Shown piece after piece: positions 27,778 to 51,087 of a DNA stretch of 64,000 nucleotides (position 1 is the first letter of the stretch; each line of letters starts with the position of its first letter). The translations under genes were made by a program, and so were the position numbers. Source of the stretch: Mucilaginibacter aurantiaciroseus (GTDB lineage Bacteria > Bacteroidota > Bacteroidia > Sphingobacteriales > Sphingobacteriaceae); assembly GCF_024055595.1 (NCBI RefSeq), contig NZ_JAMXOF010000001.1:992001-1056000 (forward strand), in the 5' to 3' direction. Below the pieces are notes generated by a model. That model saw only the letters and a list, made by a program, of their open reading frames with translations. It was not told where the DNA came from and ran no database searches.

Positions 27778-28469
27778 ATGTTTAAGTTAATGCCCTTTAA
27801 TAAAAATACACTTTATTTTTTTTTCTTATCTTTTTTCATTTTGATCAGTAGTTTATCCTTCGGACAATCTGAAAAAAAGTCTTATTTCGAAATACATATT
27901 GGTTATATGCCAACTTTAGGCAATGTAAATATCCAGGGGGAAAATACCCCCTGGATAAATACTTTATCGTCTGAAGGGGATCAAAATATGAATGGGGATA
28001 CCTTTTCCAGCACAACTATTGGTGTTGGTTATGGCCAATATGTGTCACCAAAGTTGAGATTAGGGTTGGGGATAGATGTTGACTTTTACAATAACCTATC
28101 TGAAGGCCGCTCAAGCCGTACAGTGCAATTTTTGGAGATCTGAAATATACTTTTAATAATACAAAAAGGGGCTTTTTCGTATACGGCCAGGCAGGCTATT
28201 CCTTTATAACAGGAATGGATTGGCATACAGGTTTTAAAGGTGGTTTTGGTATAGGATATTCATTGCTTAGCCCTACAAGCGAACGCGGATTTAATTTTTC
28301 TATCGGATATAATTATCAGGTATTAAATAAGTTATCTCAACAAATACTTGGCCCGCCCGTTCAAGGCGAAGGGCTTTACAGACCTACAACTGTAAGATAT
28401 CTCTCGTTTGCGGGATATAAGAATATTATTATTCAAACTTTACCAATAAAGACCACTTACGAGTTTTAA
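27778..28469 (+). pseudogene. Outer-membrane beta-barrel protein with one frameshift
   Basis: The first frame (27778-28143) has a signal peptide ending S-L-S-F-G-Q and a barrel-like stretch (I-G-V-G-Y-G-Q-Y-V-S-P-K-L-R-L-G). It runs into a stop at 28141-28143. A second frame, open before this point, continues with F-G-D-L-K-Y-T-F, then F-V-Y-G-Q-A-G-Y-S-F and ends at 28469 with K-T-T-Y-E-F, a normal barrel terminus ending in Phe. One indel near 28100 would restore about 230 residues. Otherwise the gene is undamaged, so the change is recent or an assembly error. Its stop overlaps the convergent smc stop by 4 bases. Confidence 0.7.
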
Positions 28470-31400
28470 TCTGCCAGTTCGCGCAGGTCTACAGGCACCA
28501 CTCTCGAGATACCTTGCTCTACCATCGTAACGCCATAAATAATATCGGTACAGGCAATGGTGCGCTTGTTGTGCGATATAATGATGAACTGCGATTCTTT
28601 AGAGAACTTACGGATGATGTTATTGAACTTATCGATGTTGGTATCATCCAACGGGGCATCCACCTCATCAAAAATACAGAATGGGGCAGGCTTTAGCAGG
28701 TATAGCGAGAACAGGATGGCAGTAGCCGTAAGTGTTTTTTCGCCACCTGATAACTGGTTGATAGATAGCGGGCGTTTACCTTTTGGCCTTGCGATGATAT
28801 CAATTTCAGATTCCAAAGGCTGATCGGGATTGCTCAGGATCAGGTCACACGAATCCTCCTCGTTAAATAACGAGCGGAACACCTTAATAAAATTCTCTCG
28901 CACCATCGTAAACGCCGACATGAATTTCTCTTTGGCCGTATCATCTATCTCTTTTATAGTGGCCAGTAACGATGCTTTAGCTTCAGCCAGATCCTTCTTT
29001 TGTGTTTGGATGAATGTATGGCGTTCGCTCATTTCGTTATAGGCTTCAACAGCCATTGGGTTAATGGCGCCAAAGTCGTCCAACTGGCGTTTCATTCTCT
29101 CCGTTTTATCACGGATCTCGTCTTCGTCGCTGGTTTCGGCGATATCGATCTCTAACAGGTCGTTGATGTCTACATTAAACTCAACGGACAGGCGCTCTCG
29201 CAGGGCGTTCAGCTCCAGTTTAAGGTTATTGCGTTCATCTTTTAATTCGTTCTCCAGGGTCTCGGTTTGGTCTTTACGCTGGCGGAGTTTTAATACTTCG
29301 TTTTCGCTTTCGGTAATGGTGGCGCGCCATGCGTAATATTCCTGCTCGGTTTCGGCTGTTCCTTTTTCCAATGCTTCCTTTTGCCCGTACATTTCCAGCA
29401 GGCTTTCGTCGCTGTCGCCGGTTTCCTGAAGGTTCTCTAATATGGCAGCCTTTGCTTTTTCAAGCTCGATATTATTTTGGCGGATGCGTACATCCAGGTG
29501 TTCAAGTTGAGTTTCGCGGTAATCCAGGTCCTTTAATAACCCCGAAACTTTATTTTGCTGCTGGTGGAAGCGGATATTCTCCTGGTTATAGGTGTTTGAT
29601 TGCACCGTAACCATCTCGTTCAGTTCGTTGAAGGCCTGTTGCTTATCCAGCATCAGAACCGCCTGTGCCTGCTTTTGTTCTTTTAGATGTATTAACTGCG
29701 GGCCAAGGGTAATAATATTATTTTTGATGCCCGCAACCTTGTTGGCAATATCCTGCTTACGGTTAAGGCTGTTCTCAATAAAGGCCTGGTATTGCTCTTG
29801 CTTGGTTTTAACGGTGATCAGCTCGGTATTGACTTGGTTAAGTTCGTACTGTTGCTGGCGTAGTTCGTTTGTTTTGTTAGATACCTTTAGCGCAGCTAAA
29901 CGGCTTTGTAGTTCCTCGCTTTTATTCTTGAAATTCTGGATGCGGCTTTCGGCTTGTTTGATCTCCTTAAGCAGGTTATCTAAATTCTTTGCCCTACCAA
30001 TACGCTTGCCCTCAAACAACCCAACCGACCCGCCGGCCATGGTATATTTAGATTTATTGAACTTACCGCTTTTACCGATCAGGACCACACCATCCGGTAG
30101 TTGTATACCATTGATGTCGTTTTCGGTAGCATCGTTTACCAAATAAACGTTTTTAAGCAAATAGTTACAAAGCGGCTTATAACGTTCCTCAATCTCCACA
30201 ACAGATAGGGCAGGAGGCCCCTCTAAATCTTTCCCGGTAGGGGAAATTTTTTGTTCTGAAGCCCTCTCTGAAAGGGAGGGCTTCAGTGGGGCTGCCTCGT
30301 AATTATCTAATATAAAAAACTGCGCGCGCCCTTTAGACGAATTGCTTAGCAGATTTATCGCCGCGATGGCCTCATCATAAGTGTTCACCACATAATGGTT
30401 CATTAGCGGCTCCAGGTAATTTTCTATCGCTACGCGGTATTCTTCCTTGCAAAATAATATATCGCTAAACAGGGTGACTGTTTTTGCCCAGTTGGCATTC
30501 TTTTTTAGGAAGCGGATACTCTCCGGGAAGCCTTCTAAATTATCAACCAAGCTTTTGGTAAGGTTGTATTCGTTTTGTTTGGCATCCAGTTTACGGCCAT
30601 TGGCGGCAATGCTGTCGGTAACGGTTTTAAGTTCGGTTTCTGTTTCGGCAACTTGTTCCTGTAGTTTGTTTTCTGCTTCAACAGCTTGGTCGTATTCGCT
30701 TTCAAGGGTTGCAACGCAGTTATCTAATTCGGCAATAACTTTGTTGAAATGCGAAAGTTCGGCCTCCTTGTTGGTGGTATCCTCCATATTGCGCTGGCTT
30801 TCCTGCTCAAGCGCTTGTTGTTGTATGTTAAGGATGTCGATATCTTTTTCGGCCTTGTAAACCTGGTTTTGCAGGCGGCCGTTTATGCTGTTAAGTTCGT
30901 TTAGCTCGTTACGGGCTTCTGCCTGCTGGGCGCGAAGCTCATCAACCGCTTCTTTCAATTCTCCTACACGGGAGGTGATGGTTTGCAGATTTTCGTCTTC
31001 CTGCAATTTTTCCTCGTTAAGGCGTTTAATGTTGTATTGGACGTGTTTAAACTGGTTGTTATCGCGTTCTAATTCTTCCTTTAAACGGCTTTCTTTATCC
31101 TGCTGATTTTTAAGCTGCTCGTTCTTTACCCGTTTTTCACTTTCGTAAGCACGGATCTTGGCCGAAAATTCGTTGCTGGCTTTTTGCTGCGCGGCAAGGT
31201 TTTTCTCTTTGGTAAGGCTGTCTAGTTTGTTTTGCTGCAGGGTAGCTTCCAGTTTATCAATTTGGGTTGCGATGCCTGATTTTTGCTCGCGCTGTTTTTG
31301 TTCTTTTTCTTCAATCTCGGCAAGCGATTTGCTAAAATTGGCGATCCTGAATGATGCCAGTGAAATACTCAGCGACTTATACTGATCTCGTAGTTTATAA

Positions 31401-32044
31401 TAACGCTCCGTTTTTTTAGCCTGGTTCTCCAGCGTTTTTAAGTTCTTTTCTATCTCGAAAAGCAGGTCCTCAACGCGCTCCAAGTCAGCTTCGGTATCTT
31501 TTAACTTGCTGAATGTTTGTTTTTTACGGAGCTTATATTTGGAGATACCCGATGCCTCCTCAAACAAATTACGGCGCGACCCCTCTTTGTTATTGATGAT
31601 TTCATCAATCATCTTTAGTTCGATGATAGCGTAGGAGTCAGAGCCGATACCGGTATCCAGGAATAGGTCAGTAATGTCCTTTAAGCGGCATTGTACATCG
31701 TTTAAACGGTATTCGCTTTCGCCGGTGCGGTAAAGCCTACGCGTAAGTGTAACCTGCGAAAAATCGGTAGGGAGTGCGTTTTTGGTATTATCAAAAGTTA
31801 GAGAAACCTCTGCAAGGTTGGCGGCCTTGCGGCTTTTGGTTCCGTTAAAAATGATGTTATCCATTTTTTCGGAACGCAGGGCGCGGGTGCTTTGCTCGCC
31901 TAAAACCCAACGGATAGCATCTACCACGTTGCTTTTACCACAACCATTAGGGCCTACAATAGCCGTAACCCCCTCATTAAAATTAATGGTGATTTTATCG
32001 CCAAAGCTTTTGAAGCCCTTGATTTCTAACCTGGTAAGTTGCAT
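28466..32044 (-). CDS. smc: Chromosome segregation ATPase SMC
   Basis: A 1192-residue SMC protein. The N-terminal ATPase head has Walker A G-P-N-G-C-G-K-S-N near residue 32. Two long coiled coils (about 170-500 and 680-1020) flank a hinge (about 510-670). The C-terminal head has signature L-S-G-G-E-K-T-L-T-A near 1095 and Walker B F-C-I-F-D-E-V-D-A-P-L-D. With ScpA and ScpB it forms the condensin that extrudes DNA loops. Within the hinge, residues about 582-611 are encoded by a palindromic DNA element (30211-30298) that keeps the frame and adds a Pro/Ser-rich loop. The gene is otherwise intact. Confidence 0.96.
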   Translation of the reverse strand: MQLTRLEIKGFKSFGDKITINFNEGVTAIVGPNGCGKSNVVDAIRWVLGEQSTRALRSEKMDNIIFNGTKSRKAANLAEVSLTFDNTKNALPTDFSQVTLTRRLYRTGESEYRLNDVQCRLKDITDLFLDTGIGSDSYAIIELKMIDEIINNKEGSRRNLFEEASGISKYKLRKKQTFSKLKDTEADLERVEDLLFEIEKNLKTLENQAKKTERYYKLRDQYKSLSISLASFRIANFSKSLAEIEEKEQKQREQKSGIATQIDKLEATLQQNKLDSLTKEKNLAAQQKASNEFSAKIRAYESEKRVKNEQLKNQQDKESRLKEELERDNNQFKHVQYNIKRLNEEKLQEDENLQTITSRVGELKEAVDELRAQQAEARNELNELNSINGRLQNQVYKAEKDIDILNIQQQALEQESQRNMEDTTNKEAELSHFNKVIAELDNCVATLESEYDQAVEAENKLQEQVAETETELKTVTDSIAANGRKLDAKQNEYNLTKSLVDNLEGFPESIRFLKKNANWAKTVTLFSDILFCKEEYRVAIENYLEPLMNHYVVNTYDEAIAAINLLSNSSKGRAQFFILDNYEAAPLKPSLSERASEQKISPTGKDLEGPPALSVVEIEERYKPLCNYLLKNVYLVNDATENDINGIQLPDGVVLIGKSGKFNKSKYTMAGGSVGLFEGKRIGRAKNLDNLLKEIKQAESRIQNFKNKSEELQSRLAALKVSNKTNELRQQQYELNQVNTELITVKTKQEQYQAFIENSLNRKQDIANKVAGIKNNIITLGPQLIHLKEQKQAQAVLMLDKQQAFNELNEMVTVQSNTYNQENIRFHQQQNKVSGLLKDLDYRETQLEHLDVRIRQNNIELEKAKAAILENLQETGDSDESLLEMYGQKEALEKGTAETEQEYYAWRATITESENEVLKLRQRKDQTETLENELKDERNNLKLELNALRERLSVEFNVDINDLLEIDIAETSDEDEIRDKTERMKRQLDDFGAINPMAVEAYNEMSERHTFIQTQKKDLAEAKASLLATIKEIDDTAKEKFMSAFTMVRENFIKVFRSLFNEEDSCDLILSNPDQPLESEIDIIARPKGKRPLSINQLSGGEKTLTATAILFSLYLLKPAPFCIFDEVDAPLDDTNIDKFNNIIRKFSKESQFIIISHNKRTIACTDIIYGVTMVEQGISRVVPVDLRELAD
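30211..30298. repeat. Palindromic element inserted in frame in the smc hinge
   Basis: CTGAAGCCCTC (30256-30266) and GAGGGCTTCAG (30276-30286) are perfect inverted 11-base arms around 9 bases. The segment is bounded by GGCAGGAGGCCCC on the left and GGGGCTGCC on the right, and contains TCCCGGTAGGGGA. It resembles intergenic C-rich repeats of this family (compare CCCCTTCAGGGGATTAGAGGGCTT at 51061-51084). In smc it encodes P-L-K-P-S-L-S-E-R-A-S-E-Q, then S-P-T-G-K-D-L-E-G-P-P. Confidence 0.65.
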
Positions 32045-51013: not shown

Positions 51014-51047
51014 CAAAAAAGCCAACCGTTAATTAGCGGTTGGCTTT
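51014..51047 (-). terminator. Terminator of htpG
   Basis: AAAGCCAACCG (51018-51028) pairs perfectly with CGGTTGGCTTT (51037-51047). On the minus strand a T-run follows. The sequence between it and the htpG stop (51061-51084) is a C-rich repeat fragment, CCCCTTCAGGGG and GAGGGCTT. Confidence 0.85.
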
Positions 51048-51087
51048 CAAATTCTGTTTCCCCTTCAGGGGATTAGAGGGCTTTGTG

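Follow-up and report, generated by a model that had tools for sequence, protein, structure and literature searches.

The smc gene and its hinge insert

The window, by which we mean the whole stretch of 64,000 nucleotides that was analysed (G000:C1:992001-1056000), belongs to a Mucilaginibacter genome of 3.93 Mb in 9 contigs and carries the gene of the chromosome segregation protein SMC with a repeat copy in its hinge region. Among named relatives, those closest to this SMC (up to 91% identity) come from Mucilaginibacter. The features are:

28466..32044, minus strand: smc, chromosome segregation protein SMC, 1192 aa (NCBIfam SMC_prok_B, 1012.8 bits)
30125..30466, minus strand: codons of the Pfam SMC_hinge match, residues 527-640 (coordinates computed from the residue numbers)
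30217..30292, consensus direction plus, smc coding strand minus: copy of a dispersed repeat in smc, residues 585-610 (structure model 57.4 bits; G000:C1:1022217-1022292)
30225..30251, plus strand: palindromic unit A (arms 30225-30235 and 30241-30251, 82%)
30256..30286, plus strand: palindromic unit B (perfect arms 30256-30266 and 30276-30286)
51044..51080, minus strand: doubtful degenerate resemblance to unit A (nhmmer E 0.26, not significant)

Examining the smc sequence, we found that the reading frame is open throughout its 1192 codons and that the repeat copy, 76 bases long (30217-30292; nhmmer match 30218-30292, E 9.7e-14) and composed of two diverged palindromic units placed head to head, codes for residues 585-610, which fall within the hinge region matched by Pfam. 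A preliminary description of this DNA had proposed a palindromic element inserted in frame in the hinge; its frame and position hold, the 11-base arms that it named in unit B are perfect complements, and its borders (30211-30298) have to be moved inwards. Its figure of about 30 added residues comes close to the coded insert, which has 26, and overstates the net gain, which is 12 because the element replaces an old loop. At this place the relatives L033 and L038, which lack the element, have a loop of about 14 residues, and their SMC is 1180 residues long versus 1192, so that, as the description had anticipated, an alignment with relatives differs in length and residues precisely at the insert. 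Neighbour comparisons showed likewise that the element occupies the place of old loop residues and that the loop is not simply split.

The 14-base arms of the smc copy are 93% paired, and the predicted fold of the strand at this place (-24.1 kcal/mol, z -5.42) was equalled by 0 of 200 shuffles. Perfect 11-base hairpins with loops of 3-12 bases occur at nine places in the window, the smc one included; such hairpins are thus not rare here, and the evidence for the element is the genome-wide family described below, not the palindrome. The similar fragment that had been pointed out at 51061-51084 did not hold up as a copy, the resemblance there being weak and non-significant (E 0.26), and the other copies lie elsewhere in the genome. 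AlphaFold modelled the hinge from 24 sequences with a modest mean pLDDT of 70.9, and residues 588-605, nearly the whole insert, have a pLDDT below 50, as would be expected of a loop without a fixed shape; residues 672-688 are also of low confidence, so that low pLDDT is not unique to the insert. The search of solved structures gave one weak match, 5h69 (E 0.0013), whose alignment is gapped in the insert.

The dispersed repeat and its copies within genes

An initial 101-base query gave 45 genome matches at E <= 10. A structure model built from an alignment of twelve copies returned 118 rows at E <= 1, with the two strands of one place counted apart, and these reduce to at least 58 distinct places at E < 1e-3, or 57 besides the one in smc, so that the lack of other copies, which would have refuted the preliminary description, was not observed; scoring covered 150 of the 3581 first-look candidates, and more copies may exist. 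The density is one place per ~68 kb. The consensus of the twelve aligned copies, ~80 bases in all, is CCCCCTCTAAATCTCCCCCGGTAGGGGAGACTTT, a variable spacer and AAAGCCCTCCCTNCCGGGGAGGGTTTGGGTGGGGC. The 32 full rows have a C-rich start, preceded by G in 26 of them and, one base further out, by A in 19; their end resembles GGGGC and is followed by T in 26. From these flanking preferences the ends approach AGCCCC...GGGGCT, and the inverted ends of the element comprise 6 bases. The two halves are alike when inverted, many full copies matching the profile on the opposite strand too, at a lower score. Short palindromic units in many copies, often arranged as inverted dimers, are a feature of GTAG/CGTC REPs that the repeat, with its 58 places, shares.

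REPs of the GTAG type are served by the Y1_Tnp class of transposases. No GTAG or CGTC tag was present at the element ends among the 32 full rows, the GTAG of the consensus sitting inside unit A, and in the same 32 rows the flanks matched each other hardly more often than in shuffles (k-mers of 4-8), giving no sign of target-site duplication. The repeat was found at 0 of 31 Y1_Tnp loci (99.8 kb scanned), these being the 30 best-scoring of many matches in 61 genomes plus L062 and including both Y1_Tnp genes of the own genome; as one or two copies are expected by chance in 99.8 kb, this means no enrichment rather than proven absence. As controls, the flanks of SMC genes from 29 genomes were scanned alike and contained 2 strong and 3 weak matches; those of MiaB genes from 29 genomes contained none. 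A transposase link through Y1_Tnp was set aside on the strength of the 31 loci. Of the two Y1_Tnp genes of this genome, one (L061, G000:C2:101996-105337, RAYT-like) is neighboured by a tandem array of another palindromic repeat, with some eight nearly identical units as judged by eye, and the match to the other (L062, G000:C2:802949-806269) holds one TAA stop, so that this gene is perhaps broken.

Full in-frame copies within long genes, taken here as copies whose frame stays open for 40 codons or more to either side, were found at 4 of the 57 places examined out of 58, in the genes of SMC, MiaB, IspG and UvrA, and the remaining 53 did not qualify; the LeuRS gene contains half a copy, 36 bases long and likewise in frame. 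The repeat is thus present in frame in several unrelated conserved genes, as the Rickettsia elements are, and the in-frame coding copies that the preliminary description proposed to count exist in these four genes and within long frames elsewhere in the genus. The 28 full rows outside the four genes contain 1.21 open frames per copy versus 1.70 in shuffles, that is, no excess. The idea of an element selected to be open or adapted to coding was dropped on this ground, and the deficit argues that the family is not built to code; we infer that selection filters which copies stay in genes. In IspG of the own genome (L003:52-2046), a second palindrome-like insert of a different kind, SLTPNPSPGEMDLKKVSPLNRGG, stands ~200 residues before the element copy.

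The MiaB loop that follows DSYKW gave a match at E <= 0.01 in 14 of 30 loci, sampled from 59 matching genomes; the frame is open around this loop in 30/30 (477-591 residues). LeuRS matches at 10 of 30 loci, in two loops; both samples include among their matches the query's own genome, which was chosen for its copy. Five of the ten LeuRS loci (L369, L376, L377, L387, L390) match at least partly through a related but different insert, ASPKSSPKERT...SLSFGEGRGEA, and the weaker MiaB and LeuRS matches may belong to other, related repeat families. Across LeuRS loci L362-L391, the loop before EVFTTR holds other repeat-like inserts in several species (the one just named, and SQESRVRSQE-like ones). The MiaB loop of L328, L329, L327 and L331 also contains KSEVGSQ-like repeats, in L328 alongside part of the element.

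Searching 120 genomes of the genus with the coded peptide matched 66, and among the matches listed many lie in frames of 400-1342 codons. IcmF (L183) and LeuRS (L187) were identified by NCBIfam, the rest being judged by eye, as was an IcmF-like frame of 1182 codons with three coded-peptide matches (L177, G113:C13:20700-22481). Among 251 genomes of the family, 10 matched at E <= 1e-5, all Mucilaginibacter (1 of 25 genera), in what is a test of the peptide and says nothing on the DNA repeat outside the genus. Genomes with the element in SMC are richer in other coded matches, 11 of 16 having two or more versus 30 of 94 non-carriers (Fisher p 0.0098, one match subtracted per carrier).

The SMC loop across Mucilaginibacter

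We scanned 110 SMC genes (the own one and 109 others) from 120 genomes, after 4 genomes without a match and 6 fragments had been dropped; two of the 110 are partial. The profile was made from 8 own-genome copies, picked by pattern outside the four genes, and is thus independent of any SMC. It matched 16 of the 110 genes, the own included, at E <= 0.01, with E 5.9e-13 in the window's SMC and 3.4e-20 in one relative, and all 26 rows listed up to E 1 fall in the hinge loop (~nucleotides 1700-1850); L141 starts at residue 301, so that its match at positions 848-922 is in the same loop. Of the 16 carriers, five have a full-length element in the coding direction, six have it reversed and five have half elements; the copies of L051 and L103 are degenerate. 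By eye, L121 has a further degenerate half outside the count of 16, and the loops of L141 and L294 (E 0.049) hold a palindrome of apparently another family. An extra named set of 80 SMC loci, 36 of them non-identical to the earlier ones, had carriers in 3 of 11 Mucilaginibacter (L247, L254, L258) and in 0 of 25 that do not bear this name.

The nearest relative found, G021 (94% SMC protein identity), carries the element in the opposite direction. When each of the two smc copies was matched against a limited set of 11 SMC copies and 21 own copies, the other one did not come among its six best hits, and a single insertion followed by inversion in this pair was discarded on that account. L063 carries the element, which is missing from the closely related L089 and L080, at 91 and 89% nucleotide identity to L063. 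Within the L052-L054 group, whose element borders are nearly identical, L078 is empty, from which it follows that loss also occurs. Four other empty loops (L065, L082, L074, L076) end in (D/E)(L/V/I)EGA, like the DLEGA end of the element, and are possible relics.

On an SMC tree made by a quick method with the loop left out, presence of the element requires 14 changes with L141, which is counted here and is not among the 16 carriers, or 13 without it; 11 of the 14 are forced by the starred branches. Shuffled labels gave 16.1 changes on average and 43 of 500 shuffles were as low as 14, indicating that the carriers are hardly clustered. The same repeat thus appears to have been taken up at one SMC loop in many separate lineages, in either direction. 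The mobility presumed in the preliminary description remains presumptive, but the tree points to recurrent gain at one site.

Comparison of the insert with its surroundings revealed that its DNA has changed little. Three L052-L054 pairs, which are not independent, differ at 4 of 75 element bases each, as against 10/44, 20/42 and 16/41 upstream fourfold sites (Fisher p 0.007, 1e-7 and 1e-5), and the half element of the L040/L041 pair differs at 3 of 36 bases versus 27 of 56 fourfold sites (p 7e-5); over the four pairs, insert divergence is 5-8% versus 23-48% at nearby fourfold sites. The codon changes within the insert are 3-4 nonsynonymous versus 0-1 synonymous, and the 100 codons upstream of it have 24-34 synonymous and 0-1 nonsynonymous changes. 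Few DNA changes that are yet mostly nonsynonymous suggest a peptide that is loosely held and DNA that is young, refreshed or constrained.

Origin of the insert and relation to known systems

We consider it probable that a REP-like dispersed repeat landed in the SMC hinge loop and was tolerated, and that the loop has been refilled repeatedly in separate lineages. New copies would arise genome-wide, presumably by transposition through an enzyme acting on an element that is REP-like and without a gene of its own. Selection would purge copies in genes unless they are in frame, stop-free and in a functionless surface loop. The SMC copy would then be read through as a Pro/Ser/Gly/Lys-rich loop, and this loop, as one of few permissive ones, would be filled again in separate lineages in either direction; a filled loop may be emptied or trimmed by in-frame deletion. 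Retention is best explained as tolerance, presumably neutral, since insertion elsewhere in SMC would disrupt the coiled coil or the ATPase. Counting against this explanation are the replacement rather than splitting of the loop, the lack of target duplication in the 32 rows and the 0 of 31 Y1 loci, and the low divergence of the insert counts against plain neutral drift after one insertion. More tentatively, loops of core proteins (the SMC hinge, MiaB, LeuRS and others) could be standing docks that, once entered, repeat cassettes overwrite repeatedly at the DNA level; if this is true, mobile DNA keeps changing the same loops of these proteins throughout the genus, with the cassette in either orientation.

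It is possible, if rather doubtful, that gene conversion or recombination with copies elsewhere refreshes the loop cassette with no new insertion, as the replaced old loop and the low insert divergence in the four pairs, three of them not independent, would fit. However, little divergence would also be seen if the insertions were young and independent or the DNA constrained, the first capture would still require an insertion, and the empty loops have, by eye, no visible stretch in common with the element. One ancient insertion at the level of the genus, inherited, lost many times and inverted in place, is unlikely: it would need 31 frame-keeping losses (L141 counted, midpoint root) besides inversions, the nearest pair has opposite orientations and copies that are not each other's close matches in the limited set, and half elements and, in L141, an apparent other palindrome occupy the same loop, even though the DLEGA-like ends of short loops in some clades could be relics and the empty L078 sits among nearly shared L052-L054 borders. 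That the insert is kept for SMC function, such as altered hinge opening or DNA contact, seems very unlikely, since 94 of 110 SMC genes of the genus are without a match, both orientations and thus unrelated peptides serve, most codon changes in the insert alter the residue (3-4 nonsynonymous vs 0-1 synonymous), and MiaB and LeuRS loops accept the element too; what speaks for it is the recurrence in a key chromosome protein and the statement that intragenic REPs are frequent in replication and repair genes (PMC3733652). Ordinary drift of a low-complexity loop that is C-rich by chance, which hairpins of similar size at eight other window places might suggest, is hardly conceivable given the E values obtained here and in the relative with a profile from copies outside genes.

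With repeated capture of a tolerated REP-like repeat as the favoured reading, the element can be placed among known palindromic repeats. BIMEs are paired REP units, which the repeat resembles as an inverted pair of palindromic units and from which it differs in that BIMEs are known as extragenic elements. It is like MITEs, as outlined in PMC2229807, in being short with inverted ends, and unlike them in that no target-site duplication was seen in 32 rows. Rickettsia palindromic elements are described as 105-146 bp long, located between genes and in frame within conserved genes, with an insert judged neutral or tolerated (PMC2229807, PMC10969869). The likeness to them claimed in the preliminary description is supported as one of behaviour, a palindromic repeat being found both intergenically and in frame in conserved genes, as is that description's interpretation as a whole; the element here differs from the accounts of those in its ~80 bp, its two inverted units, its host in a Bacteroidota genus, its recurrence in one loop in both orientations, and the small share of its copies that are coding. 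Intragenic GTAG and CGTC REPs consist of single or paired palindromic units, and their targets include uvrA and tRNA synthetases (BMC Genomics 2013, PMC3733652). The Mucilaginibacter repeat shares with them the palindromic units and the uvrA and tRNA synthetase targets, and differs in having no end tag and no RAYT partner among the 31 Y1_Tnp loci; SMC is not mentioned in the main text of that paper.

That palindromic repeats can be coding in Rickettsia, and that REPs occur inside genes of several bacteria, is established by these reports (PMC2229807, PMC10969869, PMC3733652). A literature search, mostly of titles and with few subscription journals, found no such element in SMC or Mucilaginibacter and no case of one loop capturing it in more than ten lineages. 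The genus, a Bacteroidota one with many sequenced species, makes it possible to trace on a tree, at one gene site, how a coding repeat is gained, oriented, trimmed and lost, provides a natural insertion series for the tolerance of the SMC hinge, and offers a way to ask if repeats supply raw material for protein loops. The surprise is the recurrence at one SMC loop: the REPs described in the recB genes of two Xanthomonas lie at about one site (PMC3733652), whereas the recurrence in the SMC loop needs more than ten changes on the tree.
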